Below, in pieces: positions 19,797-26,627 of a DNA stretch of 64,000 bases. Within the stretch, counting starts at the first letter, position 1. Each line of letters starts with the position of its first letter. The DNA is from Flavobacterium eburneipallidum (GTDB lineage Bacteria; Bacteroidota; Bacteroidia; Flavobacteriales; Flavobacteriaceae), in NCBI RefSeq assembly GCF_027111355.2, contig NZ_CP114291.2:496001-560000 (forward strand), given 5' to 3'. The position numbers and the translations under genes are program-made. A model generated the notes under the pieces. The model was not told the origin of the DNA, made no database searches, and saw only the letters and a program-made list of their open reading frames with translations.

Positions 19797-19828
19797 AAAA
19801 AGGCTAAATGAAACATTTAGCCTTTTTT
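19797..19828. terminator. Bidirectional hairpin terminator between nadD and the helicase gene
   Basis: AAAAAGGCTAAATG (19797-19810) pairs with CATTTAGCCTTTTTT (19814-19828) around a three-base loop. It separates two converging genes. Confidence 0.88.
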
Positions 19829-19840
19829 ACTTTGTGAATT

Positions 19841-22800
19841 TTATTCCTTAAAATATTCCTTCGACAGTTTCTGTGCAATTAGTTTTCGTTTTTCTTTTAT
19901 AGCATCATTTTCGCTTTCAAATGCTTTTACCATTCGCTGTCCTTTGGTACCAATCCTACCGTATTGGACAATGACATTTTGGTTTTCTATAACAATTTCC
20001 CAAAACTTATTACTTCCGTTGGATGTATTAATATATCTTTCAAAATCAGTGTTTTCAGCAGTTTCAGGTTGAATTTGTTCTTCGATAATGTCTTCATTTT
20101 CTATTTCAACAGCACTGTTTTCAAATTCAACTTCATCAAAAAACAGTTCTTTATTCAATGAAGCACCAATCATTTTAAGAACTCTTGGTTTGTTCTCTAT
20201 CCAATCCTTCGAATAAATTTGACAAATAGTCCAACCGTTTGTTTTTAAAATTTCTGGTCTCAAAAGATATTGTTCCAAAATATCATTGTTCGAATAATGC
20301 AAATCATCATCAATCATAATTCCTAAAACAAATTCCTCATCGTCTGCCGATTTTTTAATTCCTAAATGACATTTGAACTTACTTTGACCAATATTTCGTG
20401 TAGCAAAATATCCCATTTTTTCGATTTCGGTTTGTATTTGATCTGTAATTTGACTTGATTCCTGAATGCTGTTTTTACTGTTGATGGAATTCAAAACATT
20501 ATTCGCCGATTCCAATTCTCCCAAACTAATTAATTCTGCATACTGAAGGTATTTTCTAAAATAATTTGCCCCTTCATTGTATTCATTTTTAATATCAAAA
20601 TATTTTATAGAACTCACCACACACATACTTTTCTTTGCTCTGGAGAAAATTACATTCAATCTTTTTTCTCCGCCTCGTTTGTTAATTGGACCAAAATTCA
20701 TCAACATTTTTCCATTCGGATTATAACCGTAACAAGTACTCATAATGATTATATCACGTTCGTCTCCTTGCACATTCTCCAAGTTTTTTATAAAAAGCCC
20801 AACAAATTGATTGTTTTCAATACGTTTGTATTCTTCTTCAATTAGATTTTCAAAAACTTTATCTTCAATACAAATCGCTTCAATTGCTGTTTCGATTTCG
20901 TTTTGCTGTTCCATCGAAAAAGCTACTATTCCAATGCTTTGCTCCTTATTTTGAGTTAAAATTTCACGAACCATATTAGCGATATATTGCGCTTCTTTTA
21001 CATTCGACCTCGCATTATATACTCCTTTTTCAATATAATGATAGGATATTGGCTTTGAAAATAAATGATCCAAATTGGCTTTGGCATCCTGGACATCTGT
21101 TACAATTATGGGTTTTGCTATTTTGTTGTGATCTTTCAAATCAGGAATTGTCAATAATTTACTGTCATAAAAAGAAGCATTCGAGAAACCAATTAAAGCT
21201 TCATGCTTGCTTCGATAATGCCAACCCAACATAATCGACGGAAATTTACGTGCGCCTTGTGTCAGGAAACTATCGGCATCTAATGAAAAAGAATCATTGT
21301 CCTCTGCCGTTGCATCTGCCCATAAATCGTCCTGATTGCCTGAAGAACTTCCAAAGAAATTACTTGGAGGCATCTGCATTTCGTCTCCCACAATTATGGT
21401 TTGTTTTGCTCTGTAGATAGGAACAAGTCCTTCTTCGAGCGTAATTTGACTCGCTTCATCAAAAATCACAACATCAAAGTAATTTTCATCAACCGGCAAA
21501 GTATCCGAAACACTCAAAGGGCTCATCAGCCAAACCGGTTTTATTTCACGAATAATCTGACCCGAATCTGAAGAAGCCAATTCGCGAATAGATTTGAATC
21601 GGATGCTTTTACTAAATTCATTTTCCAGAATTTTTCTGCCTTCTGTTATTGATTTTTTTCTTTCTTTCTGTTCCGCTGTCATTCCCGCAACTGACATTTC
21701 AGAAGTTAAAATCAAGCTTTTGAGGTTGCTAATTTGTTTGGCTATGATATATTTCCCATTCAGTTCTAATAAGTCTACATGCATTTTTTTGACTTTCTGA
21801 ATCGAGGTATGCAACAAATCCATGTTGTATCTCTTATGCAAATAATGTGTCGCATAATATTTCTCTAATGATTTTTCGGCCAAAGTAATTTTCAAATGCT
21901 TCAGCGGAATTTTTTTAGTTTTCAATAATTGAAAAATAGACGGATTCAAATCCTGAATTTCCTCAAAGAATGAAGCATATAGATTAAAAAAGGCTTTTTT
22001 ACTGTTAATTTGAATAAGCCCATTTTCAATTTCGGATAAACTTAAATCCTCATAGTTTTCAATACTTTTTGATAATAAATAATCTACTTTGGAAAACAGC
22101 TTTTCAATTTCCGAAACTTCTTTACGATCCGATTCATTTAAGTTTTTAACAAAATTTAAAATACTGGAATCTAATTCGCTTTTAAGAATTTCTGTTTTAT
22201 TCTTTAATTCAAATAAATCTCCTAGGTGGTATTTCTTTTCAAAATTGATTTTCGAATTATTGTATTTTTCTTCTAATTCAAATTGAGCGTGTTGATTTTC
22301 TAATATGCTTGTAAGGCTTGGTTTTACAGTATGTTTATTAATTTTATAAACTGCTAAAATTTCACTTTTTATTTTTTTATAATTAGAATTAAAGAAATTA
22401 AAAAAGCTCTTCTCGTTTTTACCAATAACTTCCAAAGCCATTTTTGCATCCGTTTCAGATATTTTTTTGGTCCAATATGGAAACTGTTTGGCTAACTTCT
22501 CAATATCTTTTTGCAATTCTAATAAAGTCAGTATGTCATTTTCCAATGAATGATAAAGAGTTGTATCGGGAAACAATAAATCGGAAACATTCTTGTCAAA
22601 AAATGGAAAAGTATCCTCTGATTTTCGTAAAAAGTCCTGAATTGTAAAAAAGGTGTCCACATTGGTCGGAAGTGAAACAAAATCTAACCTTTCAGAGATA
22701 TTTTCGAGTGTTTCTTTGCTGTCTTCTATTTCATTTTTCAGATCAGTCAGGTTTTCATATCTGGTAAAAGCATCTATTTGCAAAAAGCGGAAAGGATGCA

Positions 22801-25249
22801 CAGAAAAAAATTCCGATTGATTGGTTTCTTCATTGATAGCAAATAATTTCTCAAAAGATTCCTGATAATTTACCCAATCCTGCAATCCTGCTTTTTCATC
22901 AAGAATATTCAAACTATCTAATAAAGCTTTGTGTGAATCGGAAATCAAAGCATCAAAAAGCGATTTGATGGTGAGATTGCTTTCTGAATCAATTTTGGCG
23001 TTCATAAAATCATGAAAACCGGAAACTTTCTGAATTTCATCATCAATTTTCTGAACCAAATTATTGCGATTATTTTCTATAGACTGAAAACTGTTTTTTG
23101 ATGCTGTGAAGTCGTAAAAAGTCTTTTTCAAATCAAAAATAAACTCCTTTTTGTCGGCTTGTGAATCGTGAATTAAACTACACAAGTCATCTAATCCCTG
23201 GTTTTTTAATCGATAGAAAACCACATCCAAGGCGGCACGTTTCTCACAAACAAAGAGTACTTTTTTGCCATTAGCGACGTAATTGGCAATCAAATTGGCA
23301 ATAGTTTGCGATTTTCCTGTTCCTGGAGGCCCCTGAATAATATAGCTTTCTCCAGTTTCCGAATATTTTACTGCATTATTTTGTGTAGGATCGCTCGCAA
23401 CAACATTGAAAGTCTTGGTAAAACTATTGCTAGATTCTAACTCATTTTTAAAGTCTTTTTTTGCCAATGAATTGAACAAATTTTTAAAAACATTGCTTTC
23501 GACATCATTTTCAATAACTTGATTGTAATCCCGAACCAATGACATTTTTTTATAATTAAAATTGCCTAAAACCAAATTACAAGTATCAAATTCCCAACGA
23601 AAAGGATTGGTTTCTCCTTCATCAAGATGATAAAATTCTCGTTCTATGGTTTTATTTGGATTAAAAAACTGTGGATTGCTTTTAATATCACTGTTTATCA
23701 AATATTCTAAAGACGAAGCTTGTGTAAAAACGTAATTTCTGAAAAGTTCTAAACCATACGGTTGAAAATTTTCCTGCTGGTAAGAATAATTTAAATTTCT
23801 TTGATCCTGAATGACTTCTCTCTTTTTAGAACGCTTATTAAACTGGGTCAGGATTTGTTTTGCCTGTGAATGAATGAGTTTAATTTTAGGCTTGTTGCTG
23901 TAATCAAGGACAATTCCGGAATTATTTTTCTCTACTTGTAGTTTCAATAATTCATAAATATCCTCTATTTTAGTTTCAGAAAGTTGAATCCGTTCCGGCA
24001 AACGAATGTCGTATAACTCCTTTAGCATATTCGCTAAAACTGGATTTATCTCCACTTCAGAATCTAAAAATTCCAATGAATATTGGTCTTTCACGCCTTT
24101 TTTCTTGGTCAAGGCTACCGAAACTAAAAGCAAAGGTGAAACTATTTTTTCGGAACTATTTTCTTTGGTATTGAACCAATTCAAATTACATAATGCTAAT
24201 TTTAATTGGCTAAAACCATATTCGTTAATGTCTTTATTTGCCTCTAAACGGATTTTATCTAACGTAGGAATGATGTATGGATTGTCTCCAATTTCCAAAT
24301 ATTTATTGAGTGAAATTGTGCTGTTGTTGCTGATTTTTTTAGAAATTTCGGGATTCCAATAAAAAATAGAATTAGGATCTATATTCTCATAATTCAAAAC
24401 CTGCGGAACCGATGAAATCGTAAGATTCAGGAATTTCAAATTCGGCTGAAAATACAAAAGACGATTACGTTTACTATTGTCAAAAAGGCGATTGCGGAGT
24501 TTTTCGTGAATAAATTGATTCCTATTTTGTGTTTTAGTAACCACTAAACTTGATAAATCATATTCCGTTTCCGGATTATAATCTCTATAATTTTTAAGTT
24601 TTTCGGTGATTTCATTTAAATCTTTCCAACGATTTTCCCGATTCAATTCGGTCATTCCGAGAATAATATTGGCAATAGCAGGATTCATATTGCTATTCAA
24701 AAAATACATTTTTTTGCGATATTCCACAAAACGCTTCACATCATCAATATCTGTAAAATCAAATTGCAAAGCAATACTCGCCAAAATCATTCCCAAAATA
24801 AAAATATCTGTTAATGGATCATGATGGTCAAATTCGAGTTCAAAACAACTGTAATCTTTTACATAAACAGGCTTTTTTACACTGTCTGCATCATTATCAG
24901 AAACACTTTTATCTTCATATTCACTATTTATATCATCGCCAATTTCAACAATATTGTGATGTTCTCCTGTAATTTCAAATACAGAACTTTTACTTTTAAA
25001 AAATGGGGCAATCGCTTTTGTATTTTGTCTTATTTCGAACGCATTATCCGTTATATGAAAATGTTGATTTTCGATATAAATAGTTGAAATATCTTGTAAA
25101 GAGGCTACTTTTCCTTGATTATGAATTCCCGAAACTGTCTTCAACAACGGCATCATTATAGCAATAATATCGTCGTTGGCAAAAGTTCCTTTCTGAAAAT
25201 TTTCGGTAATAAATTGATAAAAAGCCGATTCCTTTATTGGTATAATCAT
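19841..25249 (-). CDS. Giant pseudokinase-DUF4011-SF1 helicase-nuclease-like-WGR protein
   Basis: 1802 residues. The N-terminal 30-220 resembles a protein-kinase C-lobe: HDPLTDIFILGMILA looks like the DxxSLG helix region and ENRWKDLNEI like the end of the lobe. The catalytic HRD and DFG motifs are not seen, so it is probably a pseudokinase. A DUF4011-type segment follows (LRNRLFDNSKRNRLLYF near 251-267). The SF1 helicase core has Walker A GPPGTGKSQT near 640-650, Walker B VVIFDEASQ near 1258-1268, DEMQMPPSNFF, and the C-terminal VIFSRAKK near 1532-1539. About 1600-1680 resembles the Vsr-like nuclease domain of COG1112 proteins but lacks its usual Asp and Glu. A WGR-type domain ends the protein (about 1740-1802). 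Its start lies one base after the upstream protease stop, so translation is coupled. Mokosh-like defence helicases share the kinase-helicase order; a PLD partner is absent. Confidence 0.85.
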   Translation of the reverse strand: MIIPIKESAFYQFITENFQKGTFANDDIIAIMMPLLKTVSGIHNQGKVASLQDISTIYIENQHFHITDNAFEIRQNTKAIAPFFKSKSSVFEITGEHHNIVEIGDDINSEYEDKSVSDNDADSVKKPVYVKDYSCFELEFDHHDPLTDIFILGMILASIALQFDFTDIDDVKRFVEYRKKMYFLNSNMNPAIANIILGMTELNRENRWKDLNEITEKLKNYRDYNPETEYDLSSLVVTKTQNRNQFIHEKLRNRLFDNSKRNRLLYFQPNLKFLNLTISSVPQVLNYENIDPNSIFYWNPEISKKISNNSTISLNKYLEIGDNPYIIPTLDKIRLEANKDINEYGFSQLKLALCNLNWFNTKENSSEKIVSPLLLVSVALTKKKGVKDQYSLEFLDSEVEINPVLANMLKELYDIRLPERIQLSETKIEDIYELLKLQVEKNNSGIVLDYSNKPKIKLIHSQAKQILTQFNKRSKKREVIQDQRNLNYSYQQENFQPYGLELFRNYVFTQASSLEYLINSDIKSNPQFFNPNKTIEREFYHLDEGETNPFRWEFDTCNLVLGNFNYKKMSLVRDYNQVIENDVESNVFKNLFNSLAKKDFKNELESSNSFTKTFNVVASDPTQNNAVKYSETGESYIIQGPPGTGKSQTIANLIANYVANGKKVLFVCEKRAALDVVFYRLKNQGLDDLCSLIHDSQADKKEFIFDLKKTFYDFTASKNSFQSIENNRNNLVQKIDDEIQKVSGFHDFMNAKIDSESNLTIKSLFDALISDSHKALLDSLNILDEKAGLQDWVNYQESFEKLFAINEETNQSEFFSVHPFRFLQIDAFTRYENLTDLKNEIEDSKETLENISERLDFVSLPTNVDTFFTIQDFLRKSEDTFPFFDKNVSDLLFPDTTLYHSLENDILTLLELQKDIEKLAKQFPYWTKKISETDAKMALEVIGKNEKSFFNFFNSNYKKIKSEILAVYKINKHTVKPSLTSILENQHAQFELEEKYNNSKINFEKKYHLGDLFELKNKTEILKSELDSSILNFVKNLNESDRKEVSEIEKLFSKVDYLLSKSIENYEDLSLSEIENGLIQINSKKAFFNLYASFFEEIQDLNPSIFQLLKTKKIPLKHLKITLAEKSLEKYYATHYLHKRYNMDLLHTSIQKVKKMHVDLLELNGKYIIAKQISNLKSLILTSEMSVAGMTAEQKERKKSITEGRKILENEFSKSIRFKSIRELASSDSGQIIREIKPVWLMSPLSVSDTLPVDENYFDVVIFDEASQITLEEGLVPIYRAKQTIIVGDEMQMPPSNFFGSSSGNQDDLWADATAEDNDSFSLDADSFLTQGARKFPSIMLGWHYRSKHEALIGFSNASFYDSKLLTIPDLKDHNKIAKPIIVTDVQDAKANLDHLFSKPISYHYIEKGVYNARSNVKEAQYIANMVREILTQNKEQSIGIVAFSMEQQNEIETAIEAICIEDKVFENLIEEEYKRIENNQFVGLFIKNLENVQGDERDIIIMSTCYGYNPNGKMLMNFGPINKRGGEKRLNVIFSRAKKSMCVVSSIKYFDIKNEYNEGANYFRKYLQYAELISLGELESANNVLNSINSKNSIQESSQITDQIQTEIEKMGYFATRNIGQSKFKCHLGIKKSADDEEFVLGIMIDDDLHYSNNDILEQYLLRPEILKTNGWTICQIYSKDWIENKPRVLKMIGASLNKELFFDEVEFENSAVEIENEDIIEEQIQPETAENTDFERYINTSNGSNKFWEIVIENQNVIVQYGRIGTKGQRMVKAFESENDAIKEKRKLIAQKLSKEYFKE

Positions 25250-25250
25250 C

Positions 25251-26453
25251 TTAATATGTATTTTCTTTGTCAGATTCTAAAATGCTATTTAATGTAGTCG
25301 TGCAATTTTGACAGAATGATTTATATGTTTTTTCAGTAAGATTCAGCTCTTTTTTCAAAATCGTTTTCATATTCTCTTCCAAACCTAATTGTTCAGAAAT
25401 ATCAAGAATATGACCTATAAAACCTTCTTTCAAATCGGGATCGCAAAGTGCAAAATCAAGCATGATGTAGGCATAATAGTCTTTTAGATTTTTCTTACTG
25501 TTTTCGATTTTTAATTTAAAAGCATCGTCAATAAAGGCATTGTTGTTTTTATCAGCACTTGAAAAATATTGTTTGTAGAGTGTGGTGCAATATTCAGATT
25601 GAGTCCATTTTGGTTTTATAATAATCGAGATTAACTCTTTTGTGATGTCAAAAACCAATGTTTTAGTAAACAAGTTTAATTGATGTAAATCCGTTTTGCC
25701 CGAAATAATTTTTTCTATTCTTGAATAGAAATTAGTATTATCCGTTTCAAAAATTTGCAAAGATTTGGCACGAATGAAATTTTCCGGATGCGTTTCTCCT
25801 TCGGAACCTTCATTGATTCTTTCTAAAATTTCATTGGCTTGTTTTAAGTAACTTTCTGTTGAAACTTTTTCTAAACCGGTATTTAATTTAACCAAAGTAT
25901 TGATAGTAGTTTCTAAACTTCCACTCACTTTCAATGCTCCTAAATCACAAAATAGTTCCGTGTATAATTGATATAATCTTGCCGTTTCGTAATAAAACAA
26001 TTCGCTTCTGTTATCACTGGCAATTGTATTGATAATTCTGTTTGTTATTTCGAAATCACCATTTTCTAAATTGAATAATAAAATGTGCGACAATTCATGA
26101 GCAAATAAAACCAATAATTCGTCATCGTTTAGCAATTTCAAAATCGTTCCTGATAAAATAATATGCGCTTCATTTTCAAAGAAAACTACTCCTGCATTAT
26201 TAGTATCAATGGTTTGTGATTGATAAATCGTAATCGGAATAATGATGCCTAATTTATCTTTTGCGATGCCTAAAATATCATACACTTTTGGTTCAGTTTC
26301 CGGATCTAATCTATAGGCATTTTTTAATAAATCGGTTTTATACGCTTCTTGCAGTTCTTCTTTTACTTTTTCTTCAGAAAACCAAGACCAAGTTTTAGCT
26401 TGCTTTTTGAAATGATTTCTTAAATCGAAATGGAATGGAAATGGCTTTATCAT
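25251..26453 (-). CDS. Soluble M48-like zinc metalloprotease
   Basis: 400 residues without a signal peptide or membrane segment. The zinc site HELSH is at about 119-123, and the third ligand is probably the Glu of ELFCD at about 166-170. Classic M48 proteases (HtpX, Ste24) are membrane proteins, so a soluble version is unusual. The rest is helical and unrecognised. It is the first gene of a two-gene operon; its TAA is one base upstream of the ATG of the giant helicase. I infer that the protease and helicase work together, perhaps in defence or stress response, but the sequence alone does not show that. Confidence 0.8.
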   Translation of the reverse strand: MIKPFPFHFDLRNHFKKQAKTWSWFSEEKVKEELQEAYKTDLLKNAYRLDPETEPKVYDILGIAKDKLGIIIPITIYQSQTIDTNNAGVVFFENEAHIILSGTILKLLNDDELLVLFAHELSHILLFNLENGDFEITNRIINTIASDNRSELFYYETARLYQLYTELFCDLGALKVSGSLETTINTLVKLNTGLEKVSTESYLKQANEILERINEGSEGETHPENFIRAKSLQIFETDNTNFYSRIEKIISGKTDLHQLNLFTKTLVFDITKELISIIIKPKWTQSEYCTTLYKQYFSSADKNNNAFIDDAFKLKIENSKKNLKDYYAYIMLDFALCDPDLKEGFIGHILDISEQLGLEENMKTILKKELNLTEKTYKSFCQNCTTTLNSILESDKENTY

Positions 26454-26568
26454 TGTGTGGTTATTATAGCTCGATTACCTTGGTTGGAATATTAATTGAT
26501 TGATATCAAATTGCAATTATCTATTTAAACTAAATGCATTTAATTATTATAAATACCTATGATTTACA

Positions 26569-26576
26569 CAAATATA
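26569..26576 (-). promoter_or_regulatory. Possible promoter -7 box of the protease-helicase operon
   Basis: Read on the minus strand, TATATTTG lies about 116 bases upstream of the protease ATG in an AT-rich spacer of about 170 bases. The long leader makes this a weak assignment. Confidence 0.35.
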
Positions 26577-26627
26577 AAAATAGTTTTACAATTTAAAGAT
26601 TAGTTGAAATAAATCAGAATAATTTAG

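Follow-up and report, generated by a model that had tools for sequence, protein, structure and literature searches.

A soluble M48 metalloprotease and a giant DUF4011 helicase form a conserved accessory gene pair with a probable antiphage role

In the window, which is the whole 64,000-nucleotide stretch of Flavobacterium eburneipallidum DNA analysed here, a gene for an M48 metalloprotease and a gene for a giant helicase protein follow each other on the minus strand (19841-26453), with one base between the stop of the former and the start of the latter. Comparison across genomes revealed that the two genes are a real conserved unit under purifying selection and that the pair is accessory. The annotation of its relatives, together with its accessory, moving distribution, indicates that the pair probably has an antiphage role, and we put the probability that it is an accessory two-protein immune module, with an M48 protease gated by the helicase, at about one half. 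The features of the locus are collected in Table 1.

Table 1. Features of the protease-helicase locus, in window coordinates
Feature	Position	Strand	Remarks
M48-type soluble zinc metalloprotease, 400 aa	25251..26453	-	
HELSH zinc-binding motif, residues 119-123	26085..26099	-	H119, E120, H123 identical in 82/82 rows (81 distinct)
E166, predicted third zinc ligand (within TELFCD, E166 + D170)	25956..25958	-	identical in 82/82 rows
Giant helicase protein, 1802 aa	19841..25249	-	ORF; at 80/80 M48 loci (whole, contig-end-cut or split)
Pseudokinase C-lobe, residues 1-225	24575..25249	-	
DUF4011 domain, residues 254-409	24023..24490	-	47.7 bits, cut-off 22.2
SF1 helicase AAA_11, Walker A GPPGTGKSQT, residues 620-753	22991..23392	-	domain match
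SF1 helicase AAA_12, residues 1335-1547	20609..21247	-	72.1 bits, cut-off 27
MTES_1575 restriction-endonuclease-like domain, residues 1603-1694, probably inactive	20168..20443	-	49.3 bits, cut-off 38.2
WGR domain, residues 1740-1799	19853..20032	-	62.3 bits, cut-off 22
Terminator-like hairpin between convergent helicase and nadD genes	19797..19827	.	pattern match alone

Conservation and distribution of the pair

Searching the genome collection with a profile of the protease returned at least 97 relatives, 80 of which were kept, spanning Bacteroidota, Planctomycetota, Lentisphaerales and Pseudomonadota. At all 80 loci the helicase gene lies downstream of the M48 gene on the same strand, and the two are adjacent everywhere except at L041, where a 596-aa ORF separates them. 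The helicase gene is cut by a contig end at three loci (L017, L043 and L045) and split into two frames at three (L024, L039 and L046); in each split case, the start of the locus is covered by a protease match. The spacing between the genes is -58 to +117 nt in 70 of the 74 pairs with a helicase ORF longer than 1600 aa, the outliers being the insertion at L041 and three helicase ORFs extended upstream by the ORF-calling script, and the genes overlap by 4 or 13 nt in 28 of the 74. The evolutionary distances of the two proteins correlate at 0.97 over 75 pairs, a value that none of 999 Mantel permutations reached, and at 0.98 and 0.99 within Flavobacterium (14 pairs) and Pseudomonadota (27 pairs), respectively. 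For both genes, comparison of the window with L005, L008 and L016 gave a dN/dS of approximately 0.07 (dN 0.06-0.12, dS 0.9-1.7), and two further locus pairs gave 0.04-0.08. That the two genes are chance neighbours in one genome is refuted by the 80 loci and by the distance correlation, and we give this explanation practically no credence. A possible extension to Bacillota through L061, whose contig is titled Oceanobacillus, was rejected because a GC content of 71.7% is not plausible for that genus; the contig is probably mislabelled or contaminated, and L061 was not counted as Bacillota, yet remained among the 80 loci and in the alignments.

Within the phylum, the protease was found in three of 395 genomes and the full-length helicase in the same three; the helicase was matched in part only in 60 other genomes, and the other 392 held no full-length relative of either protein at the limits used. 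In a set of 60 genomes of relatives, the full-length protease occurs in the genome of the window and in one congener, with two weak matches over residues 44-128. The original prediction was to fall if the two genes were not co-conserved elsewhere or if the pair was core to all close relatives and tied to a known housekeeping pathway; they turned out to be co-conserved at every one of the 80 loci and present in just 3/395 genomes.

We also surveyed 37 genomes with NadD and the DJ-1-type protein for empty sites. In 10 of them, the window included, both lie within 20 kb on one contig. The space between them is occupied by LysR alone in five, which count as empty sites, by an NAD+-salvage cluster without the pair in three, by the cluster with the pair in one, and by the pair with LysR in the window. 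The nadD-LysR/DJ-1 site (window 19797-26627; L146-L154) is an insertion hotspot in Flavobacterium, which can be empty or hold the NAD+ cluster, the pair or both. Stops interrupt the DJ-1 gene beside the hotspot in one congener (G004:C9:119267-120029). Flanks are common to L070 and L075 among the 13 Pseudomonas loci, and L064 shares one neighbour family, while the others have mostly unrelated immediate neighbours, which fits the expectation for a moving module.

Domains of the two proteins and their catalogued relatives

The first protein matches the M48 family (PF01435) at 28.5 bits, above the curated Pfam cut-off of 20.3, and has no evident membrane segment, bearing out the original prediction of a soluble M48-like protease one base away from an 1802-aa protein. 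HELxH, E166 and D170 are kept in all 82 aligned protease rows (81 distinct); the role of E166 as third zinc ligand is presumed from knowledge of the M48 family. On these grounds the protein is a predicted zinc metalloprotease with putative proteolytic activity. In a Foldseek search its structure was closest to Ste24/BepA, and the rows included 6mdw ('Mechanism of protease dependent DPC repair') with a probability of 0.60 and an E-value of 1.2. The SprT-like family (PF10263) was matched at 21.3 bits, below its curated cut-off of 25.6, and a SprT-like Pfam match is precomputed for many of the homologues. NCBIfam gave HtpX models alone, all far under cut-off, and no PADLOC model matched the window protease at an E-value of 0.1. 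Unlike ZMPSTE24/Ste24, BepA and HtpX, the window protein is tied to a helicase gene, shows no evident membrane segment and has a helical C-terminal region of approximately 140 residues that the matches barely cover. A TerB-like fold suspected by eye in this C-terminus was discarded after Pfam scans of this stretch in five homologues, which yielded neither TerB nor any other match above cut-off. At L066 (217-4390), a second, shorter protease frame of 170 aa lies upstream of an intact pair, from which a 713-aa ORF separates it.

The helicase protein begins, within its first residues, with a fold like the C-lobe of a kinase, and the N-lobe is absent. The positions equivalent to HRD and DFG (52 and 67, assigned by eye) are variable over 75 homologues; the lobe is without catalytic residues and is a pseudokinase. 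In the motor, the Walker A residues G643, T644, G645 and K646 are identical in all 75 homologues. The C-terminal WGR, a DNA-binding domain elsewhere, is absent from four of the 75. Residues 1-560 match 575 proteins at an E-value of 0.001, and among the 120 listed of these, seven are without a WGR model and one is without a DUF4011 model.

The MTES_1575 domain has a mixed record. Six of its residues (G1613, G1621, D1647, L1668, W1673 and W1683) are identical in all 75 aligned sequences. At position 1628, the Asp site, 33 sequences have D, 21 have S, 18 have H (the window protein among them) and three have another residue; Asp is found in 30 of the 32 sequences of a set made up of Pseudomonadota, Planctomycetota and L061, and in three of the 43 others, a Bacteroidota-like set. 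At the Glu site, position 1645, 69 of the 75 carry L or M. The shorter relatives L156 and L160 have the Asp, with ECDG in L156 and SCDG in L160, and ProA-type relatives also are without the nuclease Glu, though catalogued as antiphage. Judged from these residues, the window domain likely has weak or no nuclease activity. The domain calls of the original prediction thus survive for the pseudokinase lobe, DUF4011, the SF1 helicase and WGR, and the nuclease-like domain is degenerate.

The helicase core has several catalogued relatives. PDC-S37, a PADLOC candidate for which the library gives no cut-off, matches at 682 bits over profile positions 217-1367 of 1550. A full-length match to it (L160) reaches 2042 bits over positions 1-1545, whereas the window protein leaves the profile ends unmatched and has a partner gene. 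ProA (NF058533) matches residues 551-1734 over profile positions 576-1737 of 1903 at 649 bits, under its cut-off of 1500, with ProA-type relatives L155 and L157 scoring 1971 and 2004. The SF1 helicase and MTES_1575 core and DUF4011 are common to ProA and the window protein, but the latter has WGR where ProA has DUF3320, a pseudokinase N-terminus and an M48 partner gene; the transglutaminase-like N-terminus and DUF3320 C-terminus of L155, L157 and L158 are not found in it. The transglutaminase-like N-terminus of the ProA-type relatives (L155, L157, L158 and L159) is a sub-threshold Pfam match with E-values of 0.007-0.09, and suggests that DUF4011 helicases may have gained a peptidase-like partner on more than one occasion. 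Hhe (NF042953), a DUF4011 anti-phage protein, has the helicase core in common and matches at 443 bits, below its cut-off of 2000, with the best stretch in the C-terminal core. Taken together, the profile matches place the window helicase in the same superfamily as PDC-S37, ProA and Hhe, outside the definition of each.

Type I Mokosh systems combine a kinase-like domain with the PLD nuclease partner MkoB. Against MkoA, the window helicase scored 129 bits, and the best stretch was confined to the C-terminal half of the helicase, suggesting a common helicase core; the conserved partner here is M48 rather than a PLD nuclease, and Pfam found no PLD domain in seven window proteins (the pair, LysR, DJ-1, Fe-ADH, Transgly and YicC). 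The original comparison with Mokosh was right in setting the pair apart from that system, although the catalogued families closest to the helicase are PDC-S37, ProA and Hhe. A precedent for such a pairing is Hachiman HamAB, described as a two-gene system of sensor helicase and effector (PMC12278908); the logic is alike, but the HamAB effector is a nuclease. In Pseudomonas aeruginosa, core defence hotspot 1 is reported to have a large DUF4011 gene at its flank (PMC10250203).

Genomic setting of the pair

The housekeeping surroundings that the original prediction gave for the pair do not extend to 12 relatives of the Flavobacterium group (L005-L016), where the pair sits in an NAD+-salvage/ADP-ribose operon. 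At all 12 loci, NrtR lies upstream of the protease and PRPP synthetase downstream of the helicase, the pair is co-oriented with the NrtR operon, and NADAR, KptA, ADP-ribosylglycohydrolase (ARH), macrodomain proteins (by eye) and NAMPT follow further on in varying sets. An NrtR-headed operon was also observed at L146, L148 and L149 (Prs, NADAR, KptA, ADP-ribosylglycohydrolase, a macrodomain-like protein identified by eye, DUF4291, metallophosphatase and NAMPT); it is an NAD+-salvage and ADP-ribose-removal cluster of variable content. Outside Bacteroidota, NrtR, NAMPT and Prs adjoin the pair on the opposite strand in Denitromonas (L072, 272-3907). This is the one exception among the 66 loci outside the Flavobacterium group, as BLAST found no NAD+-operon genes in the other 65. 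None were found in L020, in L017 (a short contig, with no NrtR upstream) or beside the window pair, and a NAMPT query in the genome of the window gave an empty answer, without a positive control. This distribution points more to co-option in a single lineage than to a general function.

The defence-island context of the pair is weak, with few neighbour matches. We scanned 163 of 184 neighbour proteins against PADLOC at an E-value of 1e-10, leaving out 21 short ones (151-212 residues). The first set (77 proteins) matched 98 models, and the 25 listed were mostly GajB, plus mads_3 (two members), DRT, dGTPase, DrmD, PDC-S48, BrxH, HmaA, DpdE and DEDDh; the second set (86 proteins) matched 19 models (PtuA/AriA, TnsB, subtilase and PDC-M01A). 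None of 10 neighbour proteins picked by guess matched defence models. Phage records (one query) and plasmid records (two queries) gave no match, and IMG/VR gave one weak protease match (27% over residues 62-139), in a locus where the helicase was not matched. As for expression signals in the window, sites like the terminator-like hairpin occur at least as often in shuffled sequence, and the Bacteroidota-type promoter motif had six matches versus 7.7 in shuffles, i.e. not above chance, and none upstream of the M48 gene.

A candidate helicase-gated protease module and its rivals

None of the defence and family libraries scanned names the pair, and a literature search, with subscription papers and preprints largely outside its scope, returned no title or abstract start suggesting it. 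The proposal of an undescribed defence system is upheld in that no library scanned contains it; defence itself is inferred from family resemblance and patchy distribution, the island context being weak. In the mechanism that we favour, the giant SF1 helicase would be sensor and motor, engaging abnormal or invading nucleic acid through its helicase, DUF4011 and, where present, WGR domains, and the dead kinase C-lobe would serve as an internal scaffold or as a docking or switching domain. The soluble M48 protease would be held by the helicase, set free or activated upon target recognition, and cut a target protein, so that phage replication is stopped or the cell arrested. We infer a physical complex, gating by nucleic acid, the protease as effector, phage as the trigger and a substrate for the protease. 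With a kinase lobe without catalytic residues and a degenerate nuclease-like domain, M48 is the only clearly intact hydrolytic effector and hence the likeliest one. A more specific version, in which M48 is the sole effector and placement in the NrtR operon of Flavobacterium makes helicase-gated proteolytic immunity a second line after NAD-consuming defences or toxins have fired, is tentative and, as a whole, rather unlikely.

The roles could also be reversed, with the MTES_1575 domain as the effector of a helicase-nuclease defence protein like PDC-S37, ProA or Hhe and M48 as its regulator, for example in inhibitor removal or helicase processing. A helicase core of the type found in catalogued antiphage proteins, the retention of the domain in 75 sequences with six invariant residues, D1647 included, and Asp1628 in 33 of them, 30 of these among the 32 outside the Bacteroidota-like set, all favour such a protein. 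We nevertheless regard it as unlikely, as 39 of the 75, the window too, have H or S at position 1628 and 69 have L or M at the Glu position, whereas the protease site is invariant. SPRTN digests proteins stuck on DNA, and a comparable role in removing crosslinked or DNA-bound proteins, in repair or in stripping an invader's guard proteins, can be imagined if the helicase and WGR track DNA and M48 digests what is stuck there. The presence of WGR and an SF1 helicase, the SprT-like match, seen in many homologues as well, and the 6mdw row would agree with this, but that match is under its cut-off, unlike the M48 match, the structure is closest to Ste24/BepA, and a general repair machine is not expected in just three of 395 genomes; we rank this doubtful explanation below the reversed roles.

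The placement inside the NrtR operon at 12 loci makes NAD stress a serious alternative, in which a module co-expressed with that operon would deal with proteins or nucleic acids that NAD-dependent toxins have damaged. The flanking NrtR and PRPP synthetase genes at L005-L016 and the Denitromonas locus speak for it. It is opposed by the absence by BLAST of the operon genes from 65 of 66 other loci, from L020, from the short contig of L017 and from the window neighbourhood, and by the empty NAMPT query, without a positive control, in the window's genome, and we consider it improbable, placing only chance neighbours lower.

Catalogued antiphage proteins with a nuclease-like domain at their end are repeatedly built around a DUF4011 helicase. 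In the pair described here this domain has decayed, whereas the neighbouring M48 gene is strictly conserved across several phyla. Should the protease prove to be the effector, helicase-controlled proteolysis would join the known effector types, and the pair would provide a compact two-gene system for a direct test of the role of the pseudokinase lobe. Its nesting in the NrtR operon would tie the pair to NAD+ status.
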